Origin: Pseudoleptotrichia goodfellowii
GTDB lineage: Bacteria > Fusobacteriota > Fusobacteriia > Fusobacteriales > Leptotrichiaceae
Assembly (NCBI RefSeq): GCF_007990505.1
Contig: NZ_AP019822.1
Span: forward strand, 1 to 64,000
DNA length: 64,000 nt
Direction of reading: 5' to 3'
In this document: positions 26,618 through 44,900 of the stretch, in pieces
How positions within the stretch are numbered: position 1 is the stretch's first letter
Layout: each line of letters starts with the position of its first letter
Position numbers and translations under genes: made by a program
Notes under the pieces: generated by a model
What the model was told of the DNA's origin: nothing
The model's input: only the letters and a program-made list of their open reading frames with translations
The model's database searches: none

Positions 26618-27499
26618 ATGAAAAAGTTTAAATTGGAAAAACAGTACCAGAGAATGAAAATATCCCAATATTTGAGAGAAGTGCAGAATTATTCAGGAAG
26701 AAGTTTGAGAAATGTGGAAGTGTTTTTAAACGGAAAACAGGTAAGGACTACAAAAAAACTTCCTTCAAGCGGAATTTTAAGAGTAATCGAAAAAGAAAAA
26801 GGAACGGATATAAAGCCGATAAAACTTGATTTGGATATTGTTTATGAAGATGATGATTTGCTTGTTGTAAACAAAGAGCCGTTTTTACTGACACATCCTA
26901 CTCAGAAAAAAGTTGATTTTACACTGGCAAACGGGATAGTTCATTATTTTAAGGAAAAATACGGAAAAGAAACTGTTCCGAGATTTTATAATAGACTGGA
27001 TATGAATACGTCGGGCCTTATAATTATTGCGAAAAACAGTTTTGCACAAGCATTTTTACAAAATTTTTCCGATTTTGAGAAAAAATATCTTGCAATAGTG
27101 GACGGAATTATGGAGTTTGATGAAGAAATAGTCATAGAAAAGCCTATTTACAGGGATGGAGATAAACTTGAAAGAATAATAGACGAAAGAGGTCAATATG
27201 CGAAAACAGCAGTAAGACCTTTAAAAAAATATCCCGAAAAAAATGTGACTCTTGCGGAATGTGAGCTTTTTACAGGGAGAACCCATCAAATAAGAGTACA
27301 TTTAAAGTCTGTAGGACATACAATAGTCGGAGATGAACTTTACGGCAAGGGAATCGATGAAAAAAGAGGAATAAAAAGGCAATTTTTACATGCGTATAAA
27401 GTAAAATTTACTCACCCTGTGAAAAAAGAAGAAATAGAACTGGAAATACCTTTATTTGACGATATGAAAGAATTTCTCGGAGAGGATATCTTGAAATAA
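26618..27499 (+). CDS. RluA/RluD-family pseudouridine synthase
   Basis: 293 residues. An S4-like N-terminal part (GRSLRNVEVFLNGKQV) precedes the catalytic domain, with IVYEDDDLLVVNKEP, the active-site RLD (D128) in NRLDMNTSG, TGRTHQIRVHL and GDELYG. It modifies uridines in rRNA or tRNA. The family has several members per genome, and the exact target site cannot be told. It probably shares the transcript with pth. Confidence 0.93.
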   Translation: MKKFKLEKQYQRMKISQYLREVQNYSGRSLRNVEVFLNGKQVRTTKKLPSSGILRVIEKEKGTDIKPIKLDLDIVYEDDDLLVVNKEPFLLTHPTQKKVDFTLANGIVHYFKEKYGKETVPRFYNRLDMNTSGLIIIAKNSFAQAFLQNFSDFEKKYLAIVDGIMEFDEEIVIEKPIYRDGDKLERIIDERGQYAKTAVRPLKKYPEKNVTLAECELFTGRTHQIRVHLKSVGHTIVGDELYGKGIDEKRGIKRQFLHAYKVKFTHPVKKEEIELEIPLFDDMKEFLGEDILK

Positions 27500-27527: not shown

Positions 27528-30278
27528 ATGAAATATATTCAGGAAATGAAAAGTTACAGAGGGAACAGCGGAATATTTGAAGAAAAAACAGGAAAGAAAG
27601 CTCAAAATCTTTTGGAATTGGCAAATCAGGGATTTAATGTTCCTAATTTTTCGGTAATTGACAACAGATATTTTAAAGAAGTGATATTTAAAGAGATACA
27701 GGACAGTAATCGGAATAAAGGCATTCTTGGAGAAATAAAGGACTGGAAAAGTATTTTCGGTGAAAATACCGAAGAAAAAATAGAAAATATAATAAAAATC
27801 ATAAAAGAACATAAACCTCAAAAGGAATTTCTCGAAGAAATAGAAAAAGTGATCGGAAAAGACGAATATTATGCTGTAAGATCATCTTCTGTGGAAGAAG
27901 ACAGTGATAATTTTTCTTTTGCAGGGCAGTTTGAAACATTTTTATACGTAAGAAAAGAAAATATAATCGAAAAAATAAAGGAAGTTTGGCTTTCGTCCTT
28001 TTCTTCCCACGTAATGAAATACAGAAAAGAAGGAAATATAAACAACGAAATAAATGTTCCTGCAGTTATTATACAGGAAATGGTAAATTCTGAAAAGGCG
28101 GGAGTGGCTTTCAGCGTAAATCCTGTAAACGGAAATACCGACGAAATTGTCATCTCGGGAACTTACGGCTTGGGAACGAGTATAGTTGACGGAGATGAAA
28201 ACGGAGATTTGTATATTTACAATAAAAATACGCGGGAGATAAAAAAGGAAATAAAAACAAAAAAGATAAGACAGACTCTCGATTTTGAAAATAAGAAAAT
28301 AAAAACAGAAGAAATAAATATAGATGACGAAATTTTAAACGAAAAAGAAGTGGAGGAACTTGGAGAAAATATTATAAATATAGAAAAATGTTACGGAAGA
28401 CCCCAGGATATAGAGTGGGCTTATGAAAAAGGAGAACTTTATATATTACAGTCAAGACCCATTACAACATTAAAAAAAGATACGGATAATATATCTAATA
28501 TTATAATATGGGATAACAGTAATATTGTAGAAAGTTATCCGGGTATCAGCCTTCCGCTTACGTTCAGTTTTATAAGAACGGCATATTCGGGAGTTTATAA
28601 AAGATTTTCCGAGATTACGGGAGTACCGTCTAAAGTTGTGGAAAGCTATCAGGTCGTTTACGATAATATGTTAGGGCTTTTAAAAGGAAGAGTTTATTAT
28701 AACCTGATAAACTGGTATAAACTGCTTTTATTGTTTCCTAATGCCAAAAATAACAGTAAATTTATGGAACAGATGATGGGAGTGAAGAAAGAACTGTCTC
28801 AGGAAAATTTGAGTGAAAATCTGTTACAGGCAAACGAAAAAATGTCTTTTTTGGAGAAAAATGTAAATAAAATTCAAAAATTGAAAGCGGGACTTGCGAT
28901 ATTTTTTAATATGTTTCTGATAGAGAAAAAAGCGGAAAAATTTTATAAAATCATAAATGAAAACCTGAATAATGAAAAAATAAATTTAAGTGATATGAAT
29001 ATAACGGAACTTAAAAAATATTACAGGTTTTTGGAAAATAAGTTTTTGAAAAACTGGGAAATACCTATTATAAATGATTTTCTTGTGATGATATGGTTCG
29101 GGATCTCAAAAAAAATCGCAGAAAAGTATATAAAAGAAAATGCGGATGAAGTGCATAATATACTTATCGCTCAGGAAGGACAGCAAATGATAAGTGTGGA
29201 GCCTTCAAAATACATTGAAAAATTGAGTGAAATGCTGAGAAAAAATGAGATATTGAAAGATGAAGTGAAGTCAATAATAGAAAATGCGGAAAAAGAGAAA
29301 AAAACCGAAACAGGAGAAAAAATTTTATTCGGAAATCTTTACAATATTTCGTCTTTAACAAAAAACAGCGAATTTAACAGAGTTTTAAATGAATATATGG
29401 AAAAATTCGGAGACAGAACAGTTCAGGAGCTGAAATTAGAGTCGCTTACATTAAAAGAAGAACCGCTGTTTTTTATAAAAATGATATATTCTCTTTCGGG
29501 AGTAAAAAGTGAACAGGAACATAGTAAAAGAAATATAGCCGATGAGCAGAAAAAAATATACGACGGACTGAAAATAGGATTTGTAAAGAAATATATACTG
29601 AAAAAGTCTGTATTTTATGCGAAAAAATTTATAAGATTAAGGGAAAATCTGCGGTATGAACGGACAAAAGTGTTCGGTACTGTAAGAAAAATTATGAAAC
29701 AAATCGGAATATATTTAAAAGAAGATAACATTACAGAAAATGAAAGAGATATATTTTATCTTACGATAGAAGAAGTATTCGGACTGATGGACGGGGCAGT
29801 CATAGACGTAAATCTGAAAGAGCTTGTAAAATTAAGAAAAGAAGAATATAAGAAATATGAAGAGGGAATTATACTGCCTGACAGATTTTTGACTAAGGGA
29901 TTTTTAGGAGAAGATTTTTACTACGAAGATTTATCGGCAGCCGCTCAGAATAACGAGGAACTGAAAGGGACGGGCTGCAGCAAAGGAATAGTAAAAGGAA
30001 AAGTCAAAGTCGTTTTGGACCTTGTAAATGACGAAGTGAAAGAAGGGGATATTGTAGTGACAAAATCTACGGATCCGAGCTGGGTTATGGTATTTCCTCT
30101 GTTAAAAGGGCTTATCGTGGAAAAAGGAAGTCTTTTGTCTCACAGTGCGATTATTTCACGTGAAATGAATATACCTGCAATAGTGGGAGTACAGGGTGCA
30201 ACGGGCCTTTTAAAAACGGGAGATTACATTCAGTTTGACGGAAGTACAGGAATAATAAAAAAATTGGAGGAAGTATAA
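27528..30278 (+). CDS. PEP-synthase-like phosphotransferase lacking the PEP barrel
   Basis: 916 residues. The N-terminal ATP-grasp/PEP-synthase domain (AVRSSSVEEDSDNFSFAGQF, VIIQEMVNSEKAGVAFSVNP, DIEWAYEKGELYILQSRP) is followed by a long helical middle and a C-terminal swivelling phosphohistidine domain (VTKSTDPSWVM, LLSHSAIISRE with H872, IPAIVGV). The PEP-binding TIM barrel of true PEP synthase is missing. This is the layout of rifampicin phosphotransferase-type enzymes, so it probably transfers an ATP-derived phosphate to another acceptor. It heads an apparent lipid-related operon, so the acceptor may be a lipid precursor (inference). Confidence 0.8.
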   Translation: MKYIQEMKSYRGNSGIFEEKTGKKAQNLLELANQGFNVPNFSVIDNRYFKEVIFKEIQDSNRNKGILGEIKDWKSIFGENTEEKIENIIKIIKEHKPQKEFLEEIEKVIGKDEYYAVRSSSVEEDSDNFSFAGQFETFLYVRKENIIEKIKEVWLSSFSSHVMKYRKEGNINNEINVPAVIIQEMVNSEKAGVAFSVNPVNGNTDEIVISGTYGLGTSIVDGDENGDLYIYNKNTREIKKEIKTKKIRQTLDFENKKIKTEEINIDDEILNEKEVEELGENIINIEKCYGRPQDIEWAYEKGELYILQSRPITTLKKDTDNISNIIIWDNSNIVESYPGISLPLTFSFIRTAYSGVYKRFSEITGVPSKVVESYQVVYDNMLGLLKGRVYYNLINWYKLLLLFPNAKNNSKFMEQMMGVKKELSQENLSENLLQANEKMSFLEKNVNKIQKLKAGLAIFFNMFLIEKKAEKFYKIINENLNNEKINLSDMNITELKKYYRFLENKFLKNWEIPIINDFLVMIWFGISKKIAEKYIKENADEVHNILIAQEGQQMISVEPSKYIEKLSEMLRKNEILKDEVKSIIENAEKEKKTETGEKILFGNLYNISSLTKNSEFNRVLNEYMEKFGDRTVQELKLESLTLKEEPLFFIKMIYSLSGVKSEQEHSKRNIADEQKKIYDGLKIGFVKKYILKKSVFYAKKFIRLRENLRYERTKVFGTVRKIMKQIGIYLKEDNITENERDIFYLTIEEVFGLMDGAVIDVNLKELVKLRKEEYKKYEEGIILPDRFLTKGFLGEDFYYEDLSAAAQNNEELKGTGCSKGIVKGKVKVVLDLVNDEVKEGDIVVTKSTDPSWVMVFPLLKGLIVEKGSLLSHSAIISREMNIPAIVGVQGATGLLKTGDYIQFDGSTGIIKKLEEV

Positions 30279-30279
30279 A

Positions 30280-31404
30280 GTGAAAAGTGAAGTCAGAGAA
30301 AATAAGGTTGATTTTTCATTAATAAGGTACTCGCAATGTTGGGAGGACACGGAAGTTTTGCTGGAAGGACTTGACATAAAGGAAAATGATGTGTGTCTGG
30401 GTATTCTTTCGGCAGGGGATAATGTATTTTCCATGCTTACAAAAAATCCTTCAAAAATAATAGCCCTTGATATAAGTTTTCCCCAGATTGCTCTTGTGAG
30501 ACTGAAAATAGAAGTATTTAAAGAGTTTTCTTATGAAAAAATGCTCGAATTTATCGGAGTAAAAAAATCGGATAAAAGAGCTGAAATGTATGAAAAAATA
30601 AGAGGGAATCTCGAAGAAAAAGTCAGAGAATACTGGGATTTTAACAAAGAAGCCGTTCAAAGCGGAGTTATCCATACGGGAAAATTCGAGAAATTTTTCA
30701 GCCTTTTCAGAAAAAGAATATTGCCTTTTGTTCACTCAAAAAAGCAAGTGGAGGAATTTCTTTCTGAAAAATCCGAGGCGGAAAGAACCGAATATTATAA
30801 TAAAAAATGGAATAATTTCAGATGGAAAATGATGTTCAAACTGTTTTTTTTAAATTATATTGTAGGAAAATTCGGAAGAGATAAAGAATTTTTTAAATAT
30901 GTGGAAAAAGATATTTCAAAAGTAATGACCGAAAGAAGCAGGTACGCCTCGTGTGAACTTTCTCCTTATGAAAATCCTTATCTTAACTATATTCTTACAG
31001 GGAATTACCGTTCGGACTGTCTGCCTTATGTTTTAAGAGAGGAAAACTTTGAAAAAATAAGGGAGAATATTCATAAAATAGAAATTGTACAAAATTCTAT
31101 GGAAGAATATCTGGACGGAACAGATTTGAAAATAAATAAATTTAATTTAAGTGATATTTTTGAATATATGTCTTTGGGAAATTATGAAAAATTAATGGAA
31201 AAGATTTATGAGAAATCCGCTGATGAAGCAAAACTGGTATACTGGAATCTGGTTGTGGAAAGAAATACAGGACTTATAAAAGGCGGAAAAGAAAAAAGAT
31301 TTGAACGCTCGGAAATGATTGATAAAAAGCTTCACAAAAAAGATAAAACGTTTTTTTATACTGATTTTGTTGTGGAAAAGGTGATAAAAAATGGAAATAG
31401 TTAA
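30280..31404 (+). CDS. BtaA-like (DUF3419) aminocarboxypropyl transferase
   Basis: 374 residues starting at a GTG nine bases after TTGGAGG, directly after the preceding gene. Blocks typical of BtaA are clear: YSQCWEDTEVLLEGL, the SAM site GILSAGDN, and ALDISFPQIALVRLKIEVF. BtaA moves the 3-amino-3-carboxypropyl group of SAM to diacylglycerol, giving diacylglyceryl-homoserine, the first step of betaine lipids. No BtaB N-methyltransferase is next to it, so the product may be used differently. The 3' end overlaps the next gene by 14 bp. Confidence 0.82.
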   Translation: MKSEVRENKVDFSLIRYSQCWEDTEVLLEGLDIKENDVCLGILSAGDNVFSMLTKNPSKIIALDISFPQIALVRLKIEVFKEFSYEKMLEFIGVKKSDKRAEMYEKIRGNLEEKVREYWDFNKEAVQSGVIHTGKFEKFFSLFRKRILPFVHSKKQVEEFLSEKSEAERTEYYNKKWNNFRWKMMFKLFFLNYIVGKFGRDKEFFKYVEKDISKVMTERSRYASCELSPYENPYLNYILTGNYRSDCLPYVLREENFEKIRENIHKIEIVQNSMEEYLDGTDLKINKFNLSDIFEYMSLGNYEKLMEKIYEKSADEAKLVYWNLVVERNTGLIKGGKEKRFERSEMIDKKLHKKDKTFFYTDFVVEKVIKNGNS

Positions 31405-32722
31405 GATGATAGTTGTTTTAATAATTTTCATGCTGTTTTTTCTGCTATTGAATAAACTCGAAAAAAGTGAAAAACTTAATTCGGAACTTATAAGAAAAAT
31501 ACTTCATATAGGCTCGGGATTCGGAGGATTGACACTGCCTTTTCTTTTTAAAAGAAAAATCTCTGTTATAGTGTTGGGAGTAATATTTCTTATACTGCTT
31601 ATAGGCATAAGAATAATAAAGAATAAAATAACGGGACTTAAACAGGTAATAGAAACAAAAAACAGGAAAACACTGGGAGATATATATTTTATCATGAGTA
31701 TACTCGGCTTGTGGATAGTATCAAGCGATAATAAAGTAACGTATGCACTGCCTTTGGTAATACTTATGTTTTCCGATGCTTTTGCTGCATTAATAGGAGA
31801 ATTTTACAGTAAATTCAAGTTTGATACGGGGTTCGGAACAAAGTCCGTTGAAGGTTCGGTAGTATTTTTTCTGACAACATACTTTGTCTGTATTAATTTC
31901 TTTCTTGTTTTCAGTGATTTGAAAAATATAAATATTGTCCTGTTATCATTGCTTTTAAGTATACTGACTATGATTCTCGAAGTCATTTCATGGAACGGAC
32001 TTGATAATCTTTTTGTACCTTTTTTCGTATATCTGTTTTTGAAACTGAATACAAATCTCGGTACAAAAGAGCTTGTGCATAAGTTTTGGGTAATTGTTGT
32101 GTTATTTATAATTATTATACTTAATCGAAAAAAAACCACGCTTACAAGAATTGCTCAGACAGGAAGTCTGTTTTTTCTCTATCTTGTTATGATAATAGGG
32201 GGTATAAAATGGCTTATTCCGCCATTGATAATGTATCTCGGATACTATCATTTTACGCCGAAAGTCGAAGGGCAGGTAAAAGATTCGCTGAAAGGACTTC
32301 TTGCCATAGCTTTTTCCACGTTTGTATGGCTCGCATTGGCAACAATACTGGATAAAGAGAGGTTATATCTGGTGTATATTTTCTCGTTTTCTTTACATTT
32401 CGGGCTTATAAATCTTATAAGGGACAATGCCGGAAATGTAAACAGAGAAACGTTCAGAATGAGATTTTTAGCAGGAAGTACAGGAAAAGCACTGTTATTT
32501 TTCGGATGTAATTACTTATTTTTATCAATGATTCGGGATTTTAAAATGCTCGCAGGAGTTATAATTCTCCTGATCGGAGGAATATTTTTATACGAAACTT
32601 CGATGAAAATATATTATATTATCGAAAAAGAAAAGGAATTAAGCGGAGAAAGTAAGGTGTTTATAGCATCGGGAACAGTATTTTTATGCTCGTTGCTGCT
32701 CACAGGAATAGGAATGTTGTAA
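31391..32722 (+). CDS. SEC59/DGK1/VTE5-like lipid kinase, two-part membrane protein
   Basis: 443 residues with about 12 membrane segments. The N-terminal half has dolichol/phytol-kinase features: IRKILHIGSG, a MFSDAFAALIGE segment with conserved Asp and Gly, TKSVEGS, and SWNGLDNLFVP. Relatives use CTP to phosphorylate polyprenols, phytol or diacylglycerol. The C-terminal half repeats a membrane pattern (KVEGQVKDSLKG) and may be a degenerate second unit. The gene overlaps the BtaA-like gene, so production is coupled. Confidence 0.72.
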   Translation: MEIVKMIVVLIIFMLFFLLLNKLEKSEKLNSELIRKILHIGSGFGGLTLPFLFKRKISVIVLGVIFLILLIGIRIIKNKITGLKQVIETKNRKTLGDIYFIMSILGLWIVSSDNKVTYALPLVILMFSDAFAALIGEFYSKFKFDTGFGTKSVEGSVVFFLTTYFVCINFFLVFSDLKNINIVLLSLLLSILTMILEVISWNGLDNLFVPFFVYLFLKLNTNLGTKELVHKFWVIVVLFIIIILNRKKTTLTRIAQTGSLFFLYLVMIIGGIKWLIPPLIMYLGYYHFTPKVEGQVKDSLKGLLAIAFSTFVWLALATILDKERLYLVYIFSFSLHFGLINLIRDNAGNVNRETFRMRFLAGSTGKALLFFGCNYLFLSMIRDFKMLAGVIILLIGGIFLYETSMKIYYIIEKEKELSGESKVFIASGTVFLCSLLLTGIGML

Positions 32723-32750
32723 AATCTAATTTGAAAGAAGCGGATATGTT

Positions 32751-33773
32751 ATGAAAATGAAAAGATACGTAATAATGAAAGATAATCAGACTGAAAATAC
32801 CGTTTTGGAAAAATACATTGCGGAAAATAATATTTCTGAAGAAGAAATTCAAAAAATAAAAATAGAAAGACCGTCAGAAATAACAGTTTTTTACAGTGAA
32901 TCTGGAGAAACTGAGGGAAATCTTTATTTATGGCATAACAGACCTGATTATAATGGAAAAAAAACGTCATATATAGGAAATGTAACTGTAAATGAGGCGT
33001 TTCGTGAAAAAGGCAGTGAAATTTTGGAAGAGATTTTTAAACAGTTGAAAAATGAAAAAGTTCAGGTAATAATAGGGCCTTTAAACGGAACGACATGGAA
33101 TACTTACAGGTATGTAACGGAAAAAGGAGAAAGACCGAAGTTTTTAATGGAGCCATGGAACGAGGATTATTATCCTGATTTATTTGAAAAGACGGGATTT
33201 GTTTCTCTTGCCGGATATATTTCTTCAATATCCGAAAATATGAAAAAAAGTGAAAATATAAAAAGAAAAATGGAAAAGATAAAAAAGTTCGATTTTTATA
33301 ACGATATAAAAGTTGAAAGTATTGAAAATAAAGATTTAAACGAAGTTTTAAATGATGTGTACGATTTGACAATAGAAGCTTTTAAAAACAATTTTTTGTA
33401 TACGGAACTTGACAGAGAAATATTTTTGAAAATGTATATGAGCTATAAAGACAAGCTTGTAAAGCAGTTTTTTAAACTGGTATATTTAAAAGAGGAACTT
33501 GTCGGATATGTATTCGGAATACCTGATTATGCCGAACTTTACTATAAGAAAAAAGTTGACACCGTAATACTGAAAACGATAGCAGTAGCACCGAAATATA
33601 ACGGAAAAGGTATCGGATATATTTTAATAGACGAATTTATAAAAGAAGTTCAAAATAACGGTTACAGTAATATAATATACGCATTGATGCATGAAAGCAA
33701 CGTGTCGAAAAATACAGGATTATTACTTGGGGAGAAACTGCGGGAATACACTTTATTTATAAAAGAATTGTAA
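32751..33773 (+). CDS. GNAT-family N-acetyltransferase
   Basis: 340 residues with the acetyl-CoA motif in the C-terminal third (LKTIAVAPKYNGKGIGYILI). The N-terminal half carries a weaker second GNAT-like region (IGNVTVNEAFREKGSEILEE), so this looks like a tandem-GNAT protein. A GAAAGAAG site lies near the start. Because it sits among lipid genes and follows a BtaA-like gene, the acceptor could be an amino group on a lipid head; that is inference. Confidence 0.78.
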   Translation: MKMKRYVIMKDNQTENTVLEKYIAENNISEEEIQKIKIERPSEITVFYSESGETEGNLYLWHNRPDYNGKKTSYIGNVTVNEAFREKGSEILEEIFKQLKNEKVQVIIGPLNGTTWNTYRYVTEKGERPKFLMEPWNEDYYPDLFEKTGFVSLAGYISSISENMKKSENIKRKMEKIKKFDFYNDIKVESIENKDLNEVLNDVYDLTIEAFKNNFLYTELDREIFLKMYMSYKDKLVKQFFKLVYLKEELVGYVFGIPDYAELYYKKKVDTVILKTIAVAPKYNGKGIGYILIDEFIKEVQNNGYSNIIYALMHESNVSKNTGLLLGEKLREYTLFIKEL

Positions 33774-33813
33774 TATTATAATCAAAAATAAAAATATTTG
33801 AGAGGAGTTTAAT

Positions 33814-35418
33814 ATGACAATAGCTGACAAGATTAAAGAGTTAAAAGACAGACATCCTTATAAAACTGCACTAGTAGACTTGAAAACAGGAGATAAAGCC
33901 AACTTTAACCATATGGATGTAAAATCCGATAAAATATGTACTTATTTGGAGAATAAAGGCTTTAAAAAAGGGGATAAAATAGTCGTTTTTGTGCCGATAG
34001 GAGTGGAGTTTTATATAATTTTACTGGCAATATTCAAAATGGGGTTACAGGCGGTGTTTATAGATCCTTATGCCGATACCGAACATATAAACAAATGTTG
34101 TGAGATGATTTCTCCCGAAGGAATAATAGGGAGTGGAAAAACTATTTTAAAAGGATTTTTCCTGAAAGGAATAAGAAAAATCGGGAAAAAGATAAATTAT
34201 AATAAAATGCTTGAGCAGTCTGAAAGCCTGCCTCCGATGAAAAAGAGAAAGCCTAAAAAGTACGAAAGAGAAGAAGAACATATCAATGAAAATACACCCG
34301 CTCTGATAAGTTTTACGAGCGGAAGTACAGGGTTTCCTAAAATCATCATGAGAACTCACGGATTTTTAATGGGACAGCATAAAGTTCTTGAGAAAAATTT
34401 GAAATTTGAAAAAGAAACGTCGATTTATTCGTCATTTCCTATTTTTCTGCTGTCTCATATGGCGACAGGAGCGACTGTCTTTATTCCTGATATAGATATG
34501 AGTTCGCCTATGGAAGCAAATCCGAAAGAAGTAACGGAACAAATTAAGAAAAACAATATACAGAATATAATATTACCGCCTGTAATATTGGAAAATATTG
34601 TAAATTATGTAGAAAAAAATAATATGACATTGAAAAATGTTCAGACTGTATATACAGGAGGAGCACCTGTCTTTCCGAAACTTATGCAGAAAATAGACAA
34701 AATCTTTGAAAATGTCAAAGTAAGAGCATTGTACGGTGCGTCAGAAGCCGAGCCTATTTCAATACTGAACTACGAGGATATAACCGAAGAAGATATTGAA
34801 AATATGAAAAACGGCTACGGGCTTTTAGTCGGAAGAAAAGTGGATGAAATTGACCTAAAAATAGAAGAAATTTCTGAAAAAGCTGATGAAAAAATGAATG
34901 AATCAGAAAACGAAGGCTTTGAGAAAAAAAGTGAAGCAGAAAATAAAAAGTCGGAAAATAAAGAAGATAAAAATACGGGAATTAAAGGAGAAATACTTGT
35001 AAAAGGGGAAAATGTGCTGAAAGGTTATTTGAATATTCCCGAAAGCCCTGATAAAAAATGGCATAAAACAGGAGATACGGGCTATATTAATGAAAAAGGA
35101 CAGCTTGTACTGCTGGGAAGAGTTAAAGGAAGAATAAGAATAAACGATAATATTTACTATCCTTTCAGCATAGAAACGGCATTTTCTTTCTGTGAGGCTT
35201 TAAAAAAATCGATTTTGACTTCAAAAGATGATAAACTTTATCTGATTACCGAGAGAAATCCTGATTTTGAAGGAAATTTGGAAGAAAATGAAGAAATTAA
35301 AAAATTAAAAGAGAAATTCGGGATATTTAAAATCGTGGAGGATGAAATACCTGTAGATAAAAGGCACAACAGTAAAACTGATTATAAAAAATTGGAAGAA
35401 TTGAAAGAAAAACTCTAA
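33814..35418 (+). CDS. AMP-binding acyl-CoA synthetase-like ligase
   Basis: 534 residues of the ANL adenylate-forming superfamily: phosphate loop FTSGSTGFPK (near residue 167), YGASEAEPI, the hinge region HKTGDTGYINEKG, GRVKGRIRIND, and a C-terminal Lys in DKRHNSKTDYKKLEE. A Lys/Glu-rich insertion of about 50 residues (EISEKADEKMNES onward) precedes the EILVKGENVLKGY strand and looks like a disordered loop. It probably activates a fatty or other carboxylic acid for the lipid pathway around it. Confidence 0.88.
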   Translation: MTIADKIKELKDRHPYKTALVDLKTGDKANFNHMDVKSDKICTYLENKGFKKGDKIVVFVPIGVEFYIILLAIFKMGLQAVFIDPYADTEHINKCCEMISPEGIIGSGKTILKGFFLKGIRKIGKKINYNKMLEQSESLPPMKKRKPKKYEREEEHINENTPALISFTSGSTGFPKIIMRTHGFLMGQHKVLEKNLKFEKETSIYSSFPIFLLSHMATGATVFIPDIDMSSPMEANPKEVTEQIKKNNIQNIILPPVILENIVNYVEKNNMTLKNVQTVYTGGAPVFPKLMQKIDKIFENVKVRALYGASEAEPISILNYEDITEEDIENMKNGYGLLVGRKVDEIDLKIEEISEKADEKMNESENEGFEKKSEAENKKSENKEDKNTGIKGEILVKGENVLKGYLNIPESPDKKWHKTGDTGYINEKGQLVLLGRVKGRIRINDNIYYPFSIETAFSFCEALKKSILTSKDDKLYLITERNPDFEGNLEENEEIKKLKEKFGIFKIVEDEIPVDKRHNSKTDYKKLEELKEKL

Positions 35419-35441
35419 ATCTTTGAAAAGGAGAAAGTCGA

Positions 35442-36455
35442 GTGAATAACAAAATAATGGTAACTGAAAGAATAAAAAATTTTAAAATATATTTGGACGA
35501 AAGATTTCCTGCAAGAAAAAATTCTTTTTTCGTACTTATGTTTACTCTGTCGGCATACGTTTATACAGGGTTTCTTTATAATATGAAAATTTTAGGAATG
35601 ACAGGAAATGATCCTGACAGGATTCCAATGCCTTTACACAAAGTAATTCCTTTATTTATAATTATTCTGATGTTTTTCTTTCAGTTAAGACTGACCGATG
35701 AATTTAAAGATTATGAAGAAGACTTGAAATATAGACCTTACAGACCTGTACAGCGGGGTATAATAACACTGAAAACATTGAGAAATATAGGAATAGTAAC
35801 TGTCATTATGCAAATAATATCGGCATTTTTAATAAATCCGAAAATATTGATTTATATGAGTTTTGTCTGGATCTATATGTTTTTAATGGCAAAAGAGTTC
35901 TTTATAAAAGAGTGGCTTACGAAAAGAATTGTAATTTATGCTCTTTCCCACGTAGTAATAATGATATTTATAAATCTCGTTATTATTAAGGCTGCAGGAT
36001 TTATAATGACATCACACGAAATGACTGATTTGTCGGTTTTTGAAATTTATAGAGGAATAATACCGTTTCTAATGCTCGGATATTTAAACGGAATGGTTCT
36101 CGAAATAGGAAGAAAAACGAGAAAATCTGATGAAGAAGAACACGGTGTGGAAACATACAGCAAACTTTGGGGCAGAAAAAAAGTGGTGTATATTTTGTGC
36201 GGACTTTATATTTTGGACTATATTCTCGTTATGCTCGGATTATTACAGACAAATGAAAAGTATTTTCTCTTGGGAATGACGGTATTGACTATAGTTTTAG
36301 CGGTATCAGTATATTTTATGATAAAATTTTTAAAAAAAGATTTATCGGGAAAAGTTCCCGAAAATGTGTCGGGACTCTGGATTTTGTTTTCATGTCTGAC
36401 AACAGGACTGTTTCAATATACAGTTTTTTACATATTCAGTCTATTGAAAAGTTAA
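35442..36455 (+). CDS. UbiA-family prenyltransferase
   Basis: 337 residues and eight or nine membrane helices. The first Asp-rich motif is DEFKDYEED in RLTDEFKDYEEDLKYRPYRP. The second is weaker, in the EIGRKTRKSDEEEHGVETYS region. The family attaches isoprenyl chains to aromatic or glycerol-phosphate acceptors. The start is GTG, eight bases after AAAGGAG. It is the last gene of the operon, and a gap promoter overlaps its 3' end. Confidence 0.82.
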   Translation: MNNKIMVTERIKNFKIYLDERFPARKNSFFVLMFTLSAYVYTGFLYNMKILGMTGNDPDRIPMPLHKVIPLFIIILMFFFQLRLTDEFKDYEEDLKYRPYRPVQRGIITLKTLRNIGIVTVIMQIISAFLINPKILIYMSFVWIYMFLMAKEFFIKEWLTKRIVIYALSHVVIMIFINLVIIKAAGFIMTSHEMTDLSVFEIYRGIIPFLMLGYLNGMVLEIGRKTRKSDEEEHGVETYSKLWGRKKVVYILCGLYILDYILVMLGLLQTNEKYFLLGMTVLTIVLAVSVYFMIKFLKKDLSGKVPENVSGLWILFSCLTTGLFQYTVFYIFSLLKS

Positions 36456-36472
36456 ATGATTTGTGATATACT
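36444..36472 (+). promoter_or_regulatory. gap promoter
   Basis: TTGAAA (36444-36449), a 17-bp spacer, and TATACT (36467-36472), 46 bp before the gap ATG. The -35 overlaps the end of the UbiA gene. Confidence 0.6.
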
Positions 36473-36518: not shown

Positions 36519-37526
36519 ATGGCAGTTAAAGTAGCAATTAACGGATTTGGAAGAATAGGGAGATTGGCATTAAGATTAATGGCAAATGATCCTGAATTTG
36601 ATGTAGTTGCAATTAACGATTTGACAGATGCGGCTATGTTGGCACATTTGTTCAAATACGATACAGCACAAGGAAGATTTGACGGAGAAATCCAAGTTAA
36701 GGAAAATGCATTCGTAGTAAACGGAAAAGAAATTAAAACTTTCGCAGATGCAGATCCTGAAAATTTACCATGGGGACAATTAGGAGTAGATGTAGTTTTG
36801 GAATGTACAGGATTCTTCACTTCTAAAGAAAAAGCCGAAAAACATATTAAAGCAGGAGCTAAAAAAGTAGTTATATCAGCACCTGGTTCAGGAGAAATGA
36901 AAACAGTAGTATTTAATGTGAATAACAATATTTTGGACGGTTCAGAAACAGTAATTTCTGCTGCTTCTTGTACAACTAACTGTTTAGCACCTATGGCTAA
37001 AGTTTTACAAGATAAATTCGGAATTGAAGTAGGATCAATGACTACTATCCACGCTTACACAGGAGATCAAAATACATTGGATGCACCTCACAGAAAAGGT
37101 GACTTCAGAAGAGCAAGAGCTGCCGCTGCAAATATAGTACCTAATACTACAGGAGCTGCAAAAGCTATAGGATTGGTTATACCTGAATTAGCAGGAAAAT
37201 TGGACGGAGCTGCTCAAAGAGTACCTGTTCCTACAGGATCATTAACTGAATTAATTTCAGTTTTAAACAAAAAAGTTACTAAAGACGAAGTTAATGCAGC
37301 TATGAAAGCAGCATCTAACGAATCATTCGGATATACTGAAGAACCTCTAGTATCTTCTGATATAGTTGGAATCCATTTCGGTTCATTGTTTGACGCAACT
37401 CAGACAAAAGTTATCGAAAGCGGAGACAAACAATTAGTTAAAACAGTTTCATGGTATGACAATGAAATGTCTTACACTGCTCAATTAGTAAGAACATTGA
37501 AATACTTTGTTGAATTGGCAAAATAA
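36519..37526 (+). CDS. gap: Glyceraldehyde-3-phosphate dehydrogenase
   Basis: 335 residues: the NAD fold [14 protein letters not shown], active site [12 protein letters not shown] with C151, [26 protein letters not shown], and [11 protein letters not shown]. The glycolytic enzyme acts in the cytoplasm. TAGGAGG precedes the start. Codon choice (many CCT, GGA, TTA and AAA; few rare codons) is more uniform than in its neighbours, as expected for a highly expressed gene. It has its own promoter and terminator. Confidence 0.99.
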
Positions 37527-37555: not shown

Positions 37556-37609
37556 ATCAGCCCTTTGGTTTATAGTTTTATTTTTATAAATCGGAGGGTT
37601 GATTTTTTT
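37556..37609 (+). terminator. Rho-independent terminator after gap
   Basis: ATCAGCCCTTTGGTTTATAG pairs, with several G-U pairs, with TTATAAATCGGAGGGTTGAT, and TTTTTT follows. This long stem separates gap from the exoprotein region. Confidence 0.8.
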
Positions 37610-37803: not shown

Positions 37804-38280
37804 GTGAAAAAGAGTAGAGCTTTTGAAGGACTGAGTGAATATTTCAAAAACAGAATCTTACAAAAAATAATAGCTTTTGTAATGTTACTGTTTTTTAATT
37901 TTAATATATTCGCTGACATCGTGCCTGACCCTGTCAGTATAGGGACAAGGGTAACAAAAACTGCTTCAGGGGTGGATCAGATAGATATAGCAGCACCTAA
38001 TAAGAACGGCACAAGTTATAACTCTCTGAAAGAATTACAGGTAAGTGAACAGGGACTAATCTTAAACAATAATAAAAATGTAGTCATAAATACACAAATC
38101 GCAGGACTGGTAGTAAGAAACAGAAATCTTGATAACGGACCTGAAGCAAATCTCATAATAACAGAGGTTACAGGGAAGAATAAAACAAACATAAACGGAA
38201 TAGTGGAAGTGGCAGGAAAAAGAGCAGACCTCGTTATGGCAAATAGGAACGGAATATTTGTTAATGGCGGGGGTTTTTAA
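37804..38280 (+). CDS. Two-partner-secretion exoprotein, N-terminal TPS fragment
   Basis: 158 codons from a GTG behind AGGAGCG. A long extended signal region (KNRILQKIIAFVMLLFFN) is followed by a TPS (haemagglutination-activity) domain: the motifs INGIVEVAGKRADLVMANRN and GIFVNGGGF are diagnostic. This domain leads export through a TpsB/CdiB-type outer-membrane partner. The frame stops at TAA 38278, where the TPS domain should continue. One missing T in the T5 run (38274-38278) restores LNSDRVTLTTGSLQMKDGD downstream. No TpsB gene is present in the window. Confidence 0.85.
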   Translation: MKKSRAFEGLSEYFKNRILQKIIAFVMLLFFNFNIFADIVPDPVSIGTRVTKTASGVDQIDIAAPNKNGTSYNSLKELQVSEQGLILNNNKNVVINTQIAGLVVRNRNLDNGPEANLIITEVTGKNKTNINGIVEVAGKRADLVMANRNGIFVNGGGF

Positions 38281-38866
38281 ATTCCGACAGAGTGACATTG
38301 ACAACAGGAAGTCTTCAAATGAAAGACGGAGATTTAGTAGCAATAGACGTGTCACAAGGACATATAGGAATAGGAGAAAAGGAATAGATGCATTAAGCTT
38401 GACAGATCTTGAATTATTGGGGAAAACGATAGATATAGCGGGAGTAATAAAAGCATCAAGAGAAACAAGAGTAATGGTATCGGCAGGAGGACAGACATAC
38501 CAGTATAAGACAAAAGAAGTAAAAAGTAAAGGTGAAACATACAGCGGAATAGCAGTAGACGGAAAAGCAGCAGGAAGTATGTATGCAGGAAAAATAGATA
38601 TAATATCAAATGATAAGGGAGCAGGAGTAAATACAAAAGGGGACTTGGTAAGTGTAGATGATGTAGTATTGACAGCAAACGGAGATATAACAACAAACAA
38701 AGTAAATGCAGGAAAGAAAGTAGTATATAAAACACCGAAGAAAGTAAGAATAAAAGGAGAAACAACATCAGGAAAGAAAGTACAGATAAAAGCAAAAGAA
38801 ACAGAAATAGATGCAAAAGTGATAACTGGATATTTGGAAGAAGCATTAGGAGAAAAAAGCATTTGA
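38258..38866 (+). pseudogene. Exoprotein middle fragment, frames broken at homopolymers
   Basis: Between the TPS fragment and the main frame the coding sequence crosses frames four times. The suspected sites are T5 at 38274 (one base short), the A-run at 38377-38380 (one short), the A-run ending near 38858 (one extra), and A4 at 38894-38897 (one short). With these corrected, a continuous protein reads from the TPS domain through IDALSLTDLELLGKTIDIAG, typical of FHA proteins, into the main frame at 38918. Either the gene is decayed here or the sequence carries homopolymer errors. Confidence 0.75.
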
Positions 38867-38917
38867 GATAGAAAGTGACAAGACAAAAATAACATCAAAA
38901 TAGAAGTACAGGGAAAA

Positions 38918-41900
38918 GTGGATATAAAATCCAAAGAAACAGAAAATAAAGGGGAAGTATTTGCAACAGAAAAAATAAACATAACAGGACAAAAACTGGA
39001 TAACAGTAATGGAGAAATAAGAAGTAACAGAAAAATAGAACTGGATGTAACAAACACAGTAAATAAAAAAGGATATATATTATCAGACGGACTGACAAAG
39101 GAAGAAGCAAAACAGGAAGAGGAAAGTAAAAAGGAAGACAATAAAAAAGTAGATACAGAAACAGAAAAAGGAATAAATATAACAGGAGCAGTAGATAATA
39201 CAGAAGGATTAATAAAAGGAAGAGAAGTAAGAATAGGAGGAAATCTTACAGGAAACGCTAAAGGAAAAGTAGAGTCTATAGGAGCCTTAACTTTAGATGG
39301 AAAAGTAATAGACAATAAAAACGGAACACTAAAAGGAAACATCAAAAAAATAGATGCAAATAAATTCATAAATGATGAAGGAAGGATATTAACAAACGAA
39401 AAACTCGATATAGCAGCAAAAGAAGGAAGCAATGTAAGAGGAGAAATATTCGGTTCCGAAGGAGTAAAAATAGTAGGAGAAAAACTGAATAACTTATCAG
39501 GAGAAATAAGAAGTAACAGAAAAATAGAATTGGATGTAGTAAATACAGTAAATAAAAAAGGATATATATTATCAGACGGACTGACAAAGGAAGAAGCAAA
39601 ACAGGAAGAGGAAAGTAATAAAAAGGAAGAAAACACAAAAGCAGAAACAGAAAAAGGAATAAATATAACAGGAGCAGTAGATAATACAGAAGGATTAATA
39701 AAAGGAAGAGAAGTAAGAATAGGAGGCAATCTTACAGGAAATGCCAAAGGTAAAGTAGAATCTATAGGAGCCTTAACTTTAGATGGAAAAGTAATAGACA
39801 ATAAAAACGGAACACTAAAAGGAAACATCAAAAAAATAGATGCAAATAAATTCATAAATGATGAAGGAAAGATATTAACAAACGAAAAACTTGATATAGC
39901 AGCAAAAGAAGGAAGTAACATAAGAGGAGAAATATTCGGCTCTGAAGGAGTAAAAGTAGTAGGAGAAAAACTGAATAACCTGACAGGAATAATAAGAAGC
40001 AACGGGAAAATAGACCTTAATGTAAAAGAAACAATAAACAGAGAAGGATATATATTATCAGACGGAATAACAAAAGAAGAAGCACAAAAATGGGAAGTGA
40101 AAGAAAAAGGACCTGAGAAAAAAGAAGACAAGAAAGAAGAAAGTAAGAAAGACGAAGTAAAAGAGCAGACAACAGGAGTAGAATTAAAAGCAGATAGACT
40201 TGATAATACAAAAGGAATAATAGCAAGTTTAGGACAAACAACGTTAAATGTAGGAAAAGTATCAAACGGAGAAGGAAAAATAGTATCAAGAGGTGTAGTG
40301 GAATTAACTACGCCTAATGAGTACGAATATGAAGGATTAGTAGAAGGAGATGCAGTAACAACATTAAACGGAAAAAAAGTAACAATAAAAGAAAAAATGC
40401 AAAGAAAAAATACATTGGAGTTAATAGGGCAGGAAGGAATAATACTAAAAGATGAAATAGTATCGGGGATATTAAGACTGGATACGAAATCGGACTTAAA
40501 GAATGCCAAAGATATAAGAGGGCTGGATACATTATCAGTAACAGCAAAGAATATAGAAAATGAAGGGAATCTGTTATCGGATAAGAATCTTTATGTAAAA
40601 GCTGAAGGAAAGCTGTTAAATAAGGGAACAGGCTTAATAAAAGGTAAAGAAAATACATATTTAGAAGGAAGTATAATAGAAAACAACAGAGGGAAAATAT
40701 TATCAGAAGGAAGTTTGACATTAATAGCGGAAACATTAATAAGAAATGACAATGGAAAAATAGATGCAAAAGGAGATATATACGGAGAAGTAAAGAATGG
40801 TCGTTTTGAAAATATAGGAACAGCAGACATAGAAATAATAGATACTGTAAGATATGAAGCGACAGGAACAGAAGGAATAGGGTATACAAGAGGCGGAATA
40901 TTTTCAAGATTGAGAAGAAATAGCGGAAGAAATAATAAAAATGAAGAAAAAAGAGAGATACGTGAAAGAGGAGTAAACTTTAACGTAGAGGCTTCAAATA
41001 TAACAAGTGACGGAAGCATAACAATAAAAGCGGAAAAGGGAGATGTAATAAATAAAGACGGAGGAAATATAAAAGCTCAAAAAGGTATTTATGTGAAAGC
41101 TCAAAATGTATATAATATTGGGAAATATATACAGGACGAAAAAGATAAAAACCTGACAGTATTGGGAGCAGGCGGCAGAATAGAAGGAGCCGATGTATAT
41201 ATGGAAGTAACGGGAAAAGTAGTGAACGGTACAGAAGAATATACAAAAGGCATATACAGAAGAGAAGACGGAGTATTGGTAGATAACAGAAAAGTAGGAA
41301 TGGTAATAAATCCTTCAAGTATAATAGGAAGTCAAAGTACAGTAATAAAAGCGGGAGAACTTGTAAATACATCGCAAATAGGAGAGGCAGGAAAAGGAAC
41401 AACATTTATAGATGTAAAAGGAAAAATAGTAAATGCAAGTATAGGAAACAACATAGCAAAAATAGAAGGAAAAGATGTAATTGTAGAAGGAAACAAAGGA
41501 GTAACAAATACAGGTGCAGTAATTTCAGGAACAGAATTTACGAAAGTTACGTCTAAAGACGGAAAAGTCTTAAATGAAAGTACAATAACATCCCAGACAA
41601 TAATGTTACAACCGCAAAGTGGAGGATTAAGAGGATTTATAGTAAGAAGAGCATCAGCTCCTGAAGTAATAGGAGTAACAGAAAGTATAAGAAATATAGG
41701 GAAAATAGAAGGAAATGGTCTTGTTTATGTAGAAGGAAAAGAAGTGGAAAATGTAGCCGGAAACATAAAAGGAAAAGGCGGAACATATATAAAGAGTACA
41801 GAAAAAGATATAGTAGATAAAACAATAAGTTTACAGGACAGTAAAAAAGGAGTGACAGAAACAGTAACGGAAACAAGACAGGTAAGAGATAAGAAATTAG

Positions 41901-44900
41901 TACGTCGTGGAGGAAGAGACGGAGAAGAAAGAGAAATGGAATACGGACCGTCAAAAACTGTACAGGTACAGGTTTCAAGATATTGGGATACAGTAAATAA
42001 AATGAACACAGTATCAGGAATAATAGGAGAAGGAAAAGACACAATACTTGATTCGGCAAAAGACATAGTTCTTGAAAGCAGCGATTTAAGAGCACAAAAT
42101 GATGTAGTGCTGAATGCGAAGAACTATCTTTTGATGTTCTCGACAGTGGACACTGAATATAAATTCAGAACACAGACAAGTACAAGCGGAGGAGGACTGA
42201 GAAGAAAGAAAACGACGACAGAAACATGGATACAGGATAATGTTTATGCAAATCCTGTGGAAATAACAAATGAAGGAAATGTCCTTATAAACTATAAAGG
42301 GATAGGAAAAGCTGCGGACAATAAGGGAGTATTTGCACAGGGAGTAAACTTTAAAACAAAAGGGCAGATAGTAGGATTGTCTGACGGAAATATATATTTA
42401 CAAGGTACAAAAGACAGAATAAAAAATATATATGATTCACATACAGTAAAAAGTTTCTGGGGAGTAACATATAAAAGAAGAAGTGACTATATAAGTGATG
42501 ATAAGGAAAAATACAGACATAGTCAACTATACGGAGAAAGCGGAGTAAAAATGGACTCTGAAGGAAAATTGAGAATAGAGGGAGTAGATATACAAACAGT
42601 AGGACCTGTATTTTTAAGAGGAAAACTCGGAGTAGAAATAGTACCGGGAACGGAAATAAGCAGCAGATATGAAGAGCATTTATCAAAAGGATTAAAATTT
42701 ACAGCAAATAAGGGAGGAGTATTTGCAGGAGTAGAAAAAGGTAAGAATGAAATATCGACACAGACGATAAAAAATGTCGGAAGTATAATAAACTCCAAAG
42801 GTGGAGGAGTAAAAGCAGAAGGAGACCATATAATATCAATAGGAAGTAAAATAGGAGCAGCAGGGGATATTATACTGGACGGAAAAAACGGAGTAGTATT
42901 AAAAGACGGAGAAAATTTTGCAAGTATAAGAGAGCAGAATGAAAAAATAAGAGCAGGATTATTTGCGACAGCGGACGGTAAAAAGCTGTCAGCATCGGCA
43001 GGAGTAGAAGCGGCATATTCCAAAGACTATAACGGCAGAACGATGATAACACCTGAAAAGAATGTACTTGTAACGAATAAGAATATATTAATAAAATCAG
43101 ATGAAGGAAATGTATTGTTACAGGGAGATTTTGGAGCTAAAGAGAATATAGGAGTATTTGCAGAAAAAGGAAAAATCTATATAAAAGACTCAACGAGTGA
43201 GATACTGACAAACAGCCAAAGTGTAAATGCAAGAGCAGCATTGGCAGTAAGTCTTAATTTAGGCGGAATAAAAGATACTTTTAAATCTTATAAAGATTAT
43301 TTTAAAGCAATAAAAGAATTGCCTAATATAGGAAGAGTAGGAAGCTTTATAAAAGACATAGCAAAAGGTAAAGACCTTATGGAAAGTCTTGAAGGAAAAG
43401 AAGATACAATAAATGCTTTAAATAATTACTTTAAAGGACCAAGTTCGGGAGGTGTTCATGCCGGCTTAGACTTAGAAGCAAGTGTAAGTCAAGGAAAATC
43501 AGCAAGTAAGTATATTCAAAATATAGCAGCAAATATAAGAGCAGGAAAAGATATTGTTCTTAAAAGTAATGAATTGGAAATATATGGAGGAATAATAAAA
43601 GGAGATAATAATGTATTTTTAGAATCAAATAAAATAAAAATACATGGCTCTGAAGACACTTATGAAAATAAATCTAAAAATATATCGGTAAGCGGAAAAT
43701 ACGGTATATGGGGAACGAATTCAGGAAATGTAGGAGGAAACGTAGGATATTCCCAAAGTAAATCTGAAGGAAAGACATATAATAACAGCCAAATAATAGC
43801 AGGAAATAAGTTGTACTCAAGATCTGATGAACTTATAATAAAAGGAGGAAACTTAAAAGGAAAAGAAACAGATGTGGAAACAAAAAAACTTGTATTGGAA
43901 AGTTTACAGGATACATCAAAATATAGAGAAATAGGAGTAGGAATAGGAGTAAATGCAGGTAAAGGAAAAGAAAAATATACTTATTCAGGAAACGGAGAAG
44001 TAACAGCAGTAAAAGGAGATAAAGAGTGGGTAGGAACCCAAAGCAGTATAATAGGAACAGAAAAAATAAGAGTAAAAGCAGATGAAGGATACTTAAAAGG
44101 CGGTTTGATAGGAAATATAGATGAAAACGGAAAAGACAGAGGAAATTTAACAGTAGAAATCAAAAATCTGCTGACAGAAGATATAGAAAGCAAAGATAAA
44201 CATGTAGGAGTAGGAATAAGGGCAAGTATAACGGAAAGAGAAAAAGTACCTACAGATCAGCAGATACACTTAAAAGATGAAAACGGTAATCCTATAAAAG
44301 GAAAAGAAGACAAAGTAGGCACAGATTATGGAGCATCAATAGAAGGTCATGACAGAGAAAAAGTAACAAGAGCAACAATAGGAAATGGTGTATTGTTGGT
44401 AGGAGAACAGAGTGGACCTTTAAATAGAGATGTATATAGAGCAGATGAGATATTGAAAGATGTGAATATAAAGAAAGTAAATGTGGACTTTGTGGAAACG
44501 AAAAAAGGTTGGGGAGAAATAGGAGGAATACTGGCAACAGATGCAGGAGTAATAGGAAAGTTAGCAGATGATGTAAATGAGAAACTGTTAAATAATGAAC
44601 CTAAGAACATACAGGGAGAATGGACAGAAAAAGTTTACAAGACAATAAGAAGAATAGAAGATTTTGTAGATAAAAAACTTTATAATGAGTCACTTGCATT
44701 AATACCGACATCAGGACAACATGGAGGAATTCTGGATGCTTTCAAATATTTCGGTAAAAAAGATCAATTGGATATGTATCATATTGTAGTTCAACAAGAT
44801 GAAAATGGAAAAAGAATAATAACAGGACAAAAATTAAAAGATCCGAGTCAGATAAAAACAAAAGAAATATTTGTAAACGGGATGTCAGAAGAATTAGAAG

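Follow-up and report, generated by a model that had tools for sequence, protein, structure and literature searches.

The gene array and its borders

Which compound could be made by six adjacent genes that bring together relatives of a betaine-lipid enzyme, a PEP synthase, a lipid kinase, an acyltransferase, an adenylating ligase, and a prenyltransferase? The question is raised by positions 27528-36455 of contig NZ_AP019822.1 from Pseudoleptotrichia goodfellowii, which lie within the 64,000-nucleotide stretch that was analysed ("the window", positions 1 to 64,000). The ORF list of the window contains six intact ORFs in this region, all on the + strand. They code for a PEP-synthase-like kinase devoid of a PEP barrel (PPSL, 27528-30278, 916 aa), a BtaA-like protein from a distinct subfamily of DUF3419 SAM 3-amino-3-carboxypropyl transferases (30280-31404, 374 aa, GTG start), a membrane protein predicted to be a CTP-dependent lipid kinase (SEC59L, 31391-32722, 443 aa), a tandem GNAT N-acyltransferase (32751-33773, 340 aa), an adenylate-forming ligase related to PRK09274 and OleC (AMPL, 33814-35418, 534 aa), and a UbiA-family prenyltransferase (35442-36455, 337 aa, GTG start). 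The successive intergenic distances are 1, -14 (an overlap), 28, 40, and 23 bp, in agreement with an earlier note that had described a compact array in one direction with gaps of 1-40 bp or overlaps.

Both bordering genes, which we consider to be outside the cassette, are also on the + strand. A gene resembling RluA-family pseudouridine synthases (26618-27499, named from its sequence) ends 28 bp before the PPSL gene, and a GAPDH gene from the ORF list (36519-37526) follows the UbiA gene after 63 bp. The same two genes adjoin the cassette in locus L021. A promoter-like match (36444-36472) and a terminator-like hairpin (37556-37603) are consensus matches only.

Conserved linkage and distribution

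All six genes are present in each of 13 Fusobacteriota relatives. Outside of this phylum they are found together in 30 of 41 loci with full flanks, on a single strand in 30 of 30 cases. Full flanks were defined as a minimum of 5.9 kb to the left and to the right of btaA, which applies to 53 loci in total; loci with shorter flanks were excluded. Loci L030 and L031 coincide with L017 and L018 and do not enter the tables, L016 (E 9.4e-4) was set aside as a chance match, and the input of the tree comprised those 59 rows in which both genes were long enough. Among the 41 non-fusobacterial loci, UbiA and PPSL are each encoded in 40, GNAT and AMPL each in 37, and SEC59L in 33. The carriers belong to about 13 further phyla, as judged from their recorded names.

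In terms of gene order, 68 of 72 loci can be derived by rotation from a single circular arrangement. The GNAT gene directly precedes the AMPL gene wherever both are present (63/63), and in 12 loci this pair has shifted jointly to the opposite side of the cassette. Two fusions occur, each in one open frame: PPSL-BtaA in L107 and AMPL-UbiA in L197. The earlier note had treated the genes as one functional unit, an idea that it would have given up if they were not linked elsewhere; the linkage is far beyond chance, and the six genes are one conserved enzyme set. Rotations that start with PPSL or AMPL were seen in five loci outside the Fusobacteriota, mostly on contigs which are cut at their left end.

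The set has a patchy distribution, being found in 14 of 98 Fusobacteriota, and one copy resides on a plasmid (L168, Roseinatronobacter). SEC59L is lacking from 8 of the 41 non-fusobacterial loci, GNAT or AMPL from up to 4 each; because of these absences, the product may vary or the genes may sit elsewhere. Two genomes from the same genus retain lone AMPL genes and no other cassette genes, and AMPL may therefore have a role of its own. Loci L039, L072, and L096 have, within the cassette or next to it, transporter genes of the RND/MMPL-like type, named from sequence with a profile made from two of them; these are in keeping with a lipid product. A survey of conserved neighbours for further common genes returned solely an HMG-CoA-reductase-like gene, and no methyltransferase, regulator, resistance gene, or dedicated export gene.

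The six enzymes

Catalytic residues are retained in PPSL, in AMPL, and in the divergent reductase that is described below. PPDK_N (218 bits) and the PEP-utilizers mobile domain (82 bits) are the only Pfam domains of PPSL; a PEP/pyruvate-binding barrel is absent, as the earlier note had stated, so that the protein does not classify as a PEP synthase or PPDK. Its top NCBIfam match is NF004881 (703.7 bits, below the cut-off of 883), and the scores with rifamycin phosphotransferase (282 bits), PigC (299 bits), and RedH (306 bits) are all below the respective cut-offs of 999, 1300, and 1350. The closest solved structures, 5fbs and 5hv1, are deposited as PEP synthase; we take them to be rifampin phosphotransferases. 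Rph, PigC, and RedH share with PPSL the combination of PPDK_N and phospho-His domains without a PEP barrel, and they retain the catalytic His, which in PPSL is His872 in GSLLSHSA, invariant in the alignment of homologues. PPSL differs from them by scores far under the curated cut-offs, by a different middle domain, and by its fixed neighbourhood of lipid genes, but it may still act in a similar way.

The BtaA-like protein is a member of DUF3419 (PF11899; 222.9 bits against a cut-off of 28.2, residues 12-365). Its median identity to four rhizobial DUF3419 proteins is 25%, compared to 58% within the cassette set; 15 positions are common with the rhizobial proteins and about 40 are cassette-specific. 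A thioredoxin match (E 0.023) in the sequence search against solved structures was rejected as implausible and weak. BtaA and BtaB make betaine lipids (DGTS) in Rhodobacter and rhizobia. Like the cassette, their pathway has a DUF3419 enzyme which moves the aminocarboxypropyl group of SAM. In contrast to it, the cassette has five to six other conserved enzymes and a tandem GNAT in the place of the N-methyltransferase, and no BtaB is encoded in the six-gene set or among its conserved neighbours. The complete set of a BtaAB system is thus not present, as the earlier note had observed for the vicinity of the genes, and the best match in the genome to a btaB-like methyltransferase from Rhizobium is a weak one with 46 bits, 26% identity, and one internal stop.

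SEC59L has no family match in Pfam or NCBIfam and no match to sequences of solved structures (E up to 1). It carries the residues D129, A133, G136, KS (151-152), EGS (154-156), E197, W201, G203, D205, N206, and P210, corresponding to a motif D..AA..G..KSxEGS..E..GDN..P that is invariant among the homologues and presumably resembles the dolichol/phytol-kinase pattern. In the structure model (pLDDT 87.2), residues 41-222 align to CdsA (4q2g), a CTP-using membrane enzyme, with a modest Z of 8.8 (rmsd 4.3, 159 residues, 21% identity). Other matches of the fold search (a designed helical protein with Z 9.4, pyrophosphatases with Z 7-8, prenyl synthases with Z 5-7) were set aside because Z values in this range are common for helical models. 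Motif and fold are suggestive of SEC59, VTE5, and Dgk1 kinases and of CdsA, and SEC59L is predicted to be a CTP-dependent lipid kinase with a dolichol/phytol-kinase-like N-terminal half. Unlike SEC59, VTE5, and Dgk1, it lacks a family match and has an additional C-terminal helical half, which is absent from short homologues. The label "SEC59/VTE5-like" from the earlier note may hold for the motif and the fold and has no match at the level of curated families.

The GNAT assignment was corroborated by the predicted structure (pLDDT 87.8; Pfam score 47 bits). One chain contains two GNAT folds and has kept the CoA-binding motif; it aligns over its whole length to the tandem GNAT MAB_4324 (Z 21.1, rmsd 4.1, 288 residues) and to mycothiol synthase MshD (Z 19.4, rmsd 3.7, 266 residues). 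It differs from MshD and other tandem GNATs in that the identity is 10-12% and the N-terminal repeat has a conserved motif of its own, GPxxGxTWxxYR. A search against sequences of solved structures gave no match (E up to 0.01). A defence system was considered and dismissed, PADLOC having returned a single marginal GNAT match (E 0.00058).

AMPL belongs to the adenylate-forming superfamily (AMP-binding domain, 145 bits), its adenylation motifs and K521 being kept. Its scores are below the NCBIfam cut-offs both for NF006754 (337.6 versus 478 bits) and for olefin beta-lactone synthetase (202.4 versus 850 bits). In fungal siderophore biosynthesis, SidI and SidF form a comparable pair, and bacterial ceramide synthase is a GNAT; the cassette would be similar to these in having an adenylating ligase and a putatively amine-acylating GNAT. 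The earlier proposal of an N-acylation gains support from the MshD-like fold, from the invariable GNAT-AMPL adjacency, and from a PF00551 formyltransferase in L079 and L081, two loci devoid of GNAT. Since both of these loci keep AMPL, the ligase may not feed GNAT.

The UbiA protein matches PF01040 (48.9 bits, cut-off 34.2) and has the Asp-rich first motif (DEFKD...D...RPxRPVxRG), while the second (ExGRKxR) is atypical. The solved structures nearest to its profile are the isoprenoid transferases DGGGP synthase (6m31, E 2.6e-5) and chlorophyll synthase, in line with the isoprenoid part envisaged in the earlier note.

A seventh gene in many relatives

A gene for a divergent class-I HMG-CoA-reductase-like protein is present in 29 of the 53 full-flank loci (counting that of L077 despite its 197 bits and an odd frame containing X) and absent from the cassette of the window; it was thus not visible to the earlier note. 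The catalytic Glu, Lys, Asp, and His positions are kept as in the archaeal (6hr7) and human (1dq8) class I enzymes. Unlike these enzymes, the protein has Glu in place of Ser in the loop of the HMG-binding pocket and DA(S/A)GQN in place of DAMGMN. Its profile scores 600-780 bits in cassettes versus 48-55 bits for two ordinary HMG-CoA reductases.

Among the 53 loci, 27 have both this reductase and SEC59L, 2 the reductase alone, 18 SEC59L alone, and 6 neither, which is too weak for claiming a coupling. A search of 50 cassette genomes, of which 42 were picked for having no such reductase near the cassette and 8 were positives, detected an HMG-CoA reductase of any kind in 27 and none in Calothrix NIES-4105 (G125). 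With one exception, every Leptotrichiaceae genome of at least 90% completeness encodes an ordinary HMG-CoA reductase, with or without the cassette. Mevalonate as a building block, initially suggested by the reductase of the cassettes, was rejected as a general rule, given that only 27 of 50 genomes have the enzyme and that its presence in Leptotrichiaceae is independent of the cassette.

Proposed pathway

We tentatively favour the view that the six genes, or seven with the divergent reductase, form a transferable cassette for the biosynthesis of an envelope lipid not yet described, an isoprenoid-containing, N-acylated homoserine ether; this is the likeliest of the readings, though we hold it with reserve. 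UbiA would attach or supply the isoprenoid chain. The BtaA-like enzyme would move the 3-amino-3-carboxypropyl group of SAM onto a lipid hydroxyl, the product being a homoserine ether whose amine is free; diacylglycerol as the acceptor is an assumption taken over from the BtaA family. This amine would be N-acylated by the tandem GNAT, not N-methylated as in betaine lipids. AMPL may activate an acid, either the acyl group for GNAT or the homoserine carboxyl, while PPSL and SEC59L may phosphorylate or activate lipid intermediates. The reductase, where present, could turn a thioester into an alcohol. The scheme builds on the observed gene content, linkage, catalytic motifs, and folds; the reactions, with their substrates and order, and the product are deduced.

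A bolder variant for the full seven-gene cassette, which we regard as a long shot, is a pseudo-sphingolipid, a second independent invention of a ceramide-type architecture with methionine replacing serine. Here, the BtaA-like enzyme would link the homoserine backbone by an ether bond to a long isoprenoid or lipid alcohol, GNAT would N-acylate it like a ceramide synthase, AMPL would activate the homoserine carboxyl, the reductase would reduce it to an alcohol, and SEC59L would phosphorylate that alcohol; forms without the reductase, as in the window, would keep the acid.

Alternative explanations

The product may not be a structural lipid at all and could instead be a soluble or secreted specialised metabolite such as a signal, an antibiotic-like compound, or a chelator, which we consider unlikely. 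The scores of PPSL with PigC and RedH are close to that with rifamycin phosphotransferase, patchy occurrence and a plasmid copy are usual for such metabolism, and transporters are close to the cassette in three loci. On the other hand, BtaA, UbiA, and, as predicted, SEC59L come from families that act on membrane lipids, the conserved neighbourhood offers none of the accessory genes of regulation, resistance, or export, and several hosts are free-living, with no biosynthetic gene cluster context apparent. The corresponding scheme, with a BtaA-like enzyme that puts the aminocarboxypropyl group on a small prenylated acceptor, a PPSL that condenses like the prodigiosin ligases, and AMPL plus GNAT adding an acid, is doubtful to the same degree.

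Another idea is that PPSL condenses its substrates as a ligase-type enzyme and that AMPL is OleC-like, in which case the key bond would be a C-C bond, an amide, or a beta-lactone and homoserine would be minor. The 202 bits of AMPL with olefin beta-lactone synthetase, the resemblance of PPSL to PigC and RedH, and the BtaA-PPSL fusion in L107 are compatible with it. We find it improbable, as AMPL stays below the OleC cut-off, OleA, OleB, and OleD are not conserved in the cassette, and PPSL stays below every cut-off and has its nearest solved relatives among what are presumably rifampin O-phosphotransferases. Finally, ordinary DGTS synthesis by BtaA and a BtaB encoded elsewhere, next to unrelated genes, would explain the DUF3419 membership and the weak methyltransferase match in the genome; however, the neighbours are linked, not unrelated, their conserved neighbourhood is devoid of a methyltransferase, and the BtaA-like protein represents a separate subfamily distant from the four rhizobial proteins, two of which are encoded beside a SAM methyltransferase. 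We thus regard this explanation as hardly tenable.

Relation to the literature and implications

A search of open-access papers did not find a description of the gene set, and within this scope the earlier statement that no described pathway has exactly this set holds up. PMC12419801 does not describe it either. With respect to the proposed N-acylated homoserine-ether lipid, the earlier reading is supported in part (one unit, no btaB, support for the GNAT and UbiA steps) and is extended by the seventh gene of many relatives; diacylglycerol as acceptor, a membrane lipid as product, a ligase that feeds the GNAT, and a polyprenol as substrate of SEC59L are its conjectural elements.

The cassette, a small and conserved set that has been spread by transfer, unites two or more enzyme subfamilies for which no function has been described, among them PPSL and the divergent reductase. 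If the pseudo-sphingolipid variant were true, ceramide-type architecture would be spread over more than a dozen phyla. If the proposed envelope lipid is real, surveys of phosphorus-saving lipids should not count DUF3419 genes outside of btaA-btaB pairs as genes for betaine lipids, and a lipid class would have been overlooked in cultured bacteria, among them Leptotrichia, Calothrix, Brevibacillus laterosporus, and Methylomonas.

Gene content of the cassette and its flanks

The six cassette ORFs are intact and occupy positions 27528-36455 on the + strand, with intergenic gaps of 1, -14, 28, 40, and 23 bp. The ORF coordinates thus bear out the compact, unidirectional layout described in the earlier note. 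Sequence inspection revealed purine runs resembling ribosome-binding sites before most of the starts. An rluA-like gene ends 28 bp before the run, and the gene for GAPDH starts 63 bp past it. The promoter-like match ahead of the GAPDH gene (36444-36472) is weak evidence, because the scan total of 60 is only about one standard deviation above that of shuffled sequences (49.3, sd 8.3). Beyond the GAPDH gene, a large filamentous-haemagglutinin/TpsA-like adhesin (37804-45955) seems to be broken, as by frameshifts, into three ORFs (37804-38280, 38258-38866, and 38918-45955, all +), for which phase variation, decay, or sequencing error may be the cause.

A domain search of gene 1 found a PPDK_N ATP-binding domain and a phospho-histidine mobile domain and no PEP barrel, in agreement with its reading as a barrel-less PEP-synthase-like kinase (PPSL). 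The protein is under the cut-off for every named NCBIfam model. Its closest solved structures, 5fbs and 5hv1, are deposited as PEP synthase; we take them to be rifampin phosphotransferases. In an alignment of 19 relatives, the catalytic histidine (H872) does not vary. Family, motif, and fold evidence likewise upholds four further identities: gene 2 is a member of the DUF3419/BtaA family (domain search); gene 4 is a tandem GNAT, the structure model of which (pLDDT 87.8) matches MAB_4324 (Z 21.1) and mycothiol synthase MshD (Z 19.4); gene 5 encodes an adenylate-forming ligase in which the adenylation motifs and K521 are conserved; and gene 6 is a UbiA protein, the profile of which, searched against solved structures, picks up digeranylgeranylglyceryl phosphate synthase at E 2.6e-5 and chlorophyll synthase at E 0.001. 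The assignment of gene 3 as SEC59/VTE5-like is tentative. It has no family match among Pfam and NCBIfam models. Residues 41-222 of its structure model (pLDDT 87.2) match CdsA over 159 residues with an rmsd of 4.3 (Z 8.8, not decisive alone), and its invariant residues follow the pattern of dolichol and phytol kinases.

Conserved linkage across bacteria

The neighborhood survey suggested by the earlier note was run and confirmed that the genes form a linked unit. Of 98 Fusobacteriota genomes, 14, all from one family, carry the BtaA-like gene, and all six genes are present in each of the 13 fusobacterial relatives fetched. From these and the window, gene-content profiles were made. A five-sequence BtaA alignment was searched against contigs of 84,980 species, and the best 80 of 286 relatives were used. 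Among the 53 loci with at least 5.9 kb on both sides of btaA (full-flank loci), UbiA and PPSL are present in 52 each, GNAT and the ligase in 49 each, and the SEC59-like gene in 45. The complete set occurs in 30 of the 41 non-fusobacterial full-flank loci and, among the matches listed, always on one strand (30/30). By record titles, these matches cover about 13 further phyla, including Cyanobacteriota, Pseudomonadota, Planctomycetota, Acidobacteriota, Deinococcota, Bacteroidota, Gemmatimonadota, Chloroflexota, and Bacillota. Fusions in single open frames, PPSL-BtaA in L107 (7106-11173) and ligase-UbiA in L197 (10530-13142, -), tie further steps together.

Deviating arrangements also occur. One cyanobacterium has btaA by itself, with reductase, UbiA, and PPSL grouped at another genome site (L084, L184). 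PPSL-like proteins (E <= 1e-150) were found in 22 of 244 genomes sampled from the phylum of Calothrix; among ten such places inspected, L195 has the full set, L193 and L196 have PPSL only, and in several others the sets are partial, more divergent, or rearranged. A verrucomicrobial variant (L034, 4622-9266) carries an 840-aa class-III aminotransferase protein and a second PPSL-type protein between PPSL and BtaA, and has neither the SEC59-like gene nor the reductase.

Gene order and mobility

Five or more of the six genes are present in 72 loci, and in 68 of these they lie on one strand as a rotation of a single cyclic order, reductase-UbiA-PPSL-BtaA-SEC59-like-GNAT-ligase (6/720 for a random six-gene order). 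Three rotations are real. One starts with reductase or UbiA; another, in 12 loci, with GNAT-ligase; and the third, which the window shares with 11 Leptotrichiaceae loci, starts with PPSL and ends with UbiA. The rotations could have originated via circular intermediates, or by tandem duplication followed by loss. A Roseinatronobacter plasmid carries the set, which the start of the circular record cuts at the reductase. A BtaA and PPSL tree (59 rows, quick method) splits several phyla, with four changes for Cyanobacteriota, four for Pseudomonadota, and three for Planctomycetota; this fits transfer but is no proof of it, because some rows are metagenome bins. Within the genus of the window, only the ligase separates the rluA-like gene from GAPDH in G085 (L182, 8850-10436, -), and in G086 it follows the rluA-like gene up to the contig end (L183, 1-576, -). 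This genus has therefore gained or lost the other five genes at that site.

Proposed product and novelty

BtaA chemistry would lead to a product with a free amine. The earlier note saw no BtaB nearby, and this stands: btaB is not among the conserved cassette neighbors, and the nearest match in the window's own genome is weak. The BtaA-like step would yield a homoserine ether, the amine of which would then be N-acylated. Acylation by the GNAT is plausible: its fold, and a PF00551 formyltransferase in two loci lacking GNAT (L079, 3774-4517; L081, 12405-13193, -), are as expected for amine acylation or formylation. Both loci fall within a subtype that has long branches and a divergent UbiA and ligase. 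GNAT and ligase adjoin in all 63 loci having both, which fits activation by the ligase of the acid for the GNAT; the retention of the ligase in the formyltransferase loci, however, fits better with its acting on another carboxyl. An isoprenoid part is pointed to by the relatives of UbiA. Our favored product is a homoserine-ether lipid, N-acylated and with an isoprenoid portion; with every reaction inferred, it is in our judgment a serious candidate, if somewhat short of probable. RND/MMPL-type transporter genes, named from sequence, lie in or beside the cassette in L039 (7857-10001), L072 (3729-5993), and L096, and are possible exporters of the product.

The open-access literature, to which the search was confined, mentions DUF3419 itself; as the earlier note had supposed, a description of the six-gene set was not found there. 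Every family is already known, and the combination is apparently new among DUF3419-based aminolipid pathways. Within the cassette set, BtaA-like proteins have a median identity of 58%; against four rhizobial DUF3419 proteins, two of which adjoin a SAM methyltransferase, identity is about 25%. A DUF3419 gene on a Rhizobium plasmid (L169, 835-4065) has a third context, with an MBL-fold hydrolase and a 'CoF synthetase' and without BtaB or the cassette, perhaps another aminocarboxypropyl pathway.

A divergent reductase as seventh gene

A class-I-like HMG-CoA-reductase homologue is present in 29 of the 53 full-flank loci, in most cases directly upstream of UbiA. The cassette-linked divergent form was found in L028 (3210-4481) and 36 further loci; among fusobacteria, L028 and L029 have it, and it is absent from the window and from 11 other Leptotrichiaceae loci. 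Catalytic positions are kept, the HMG-binding-loop serine (S684 in human numbering) is replaced by glutamate, and the DAMGMN motif reads DA(S/A)GQN. A profile built from five cassette copies scores 600-780 bits on cassette copies, compared to 48 on an ordinary reductase in the window's genome and 55 on one in G103. These pocket and motif changes and the score gap suggest that the cassette reductase may act on a substrate other than HMG-CoA. In automatic annotation, it may be mistaken for part of the mevalonate pathway.
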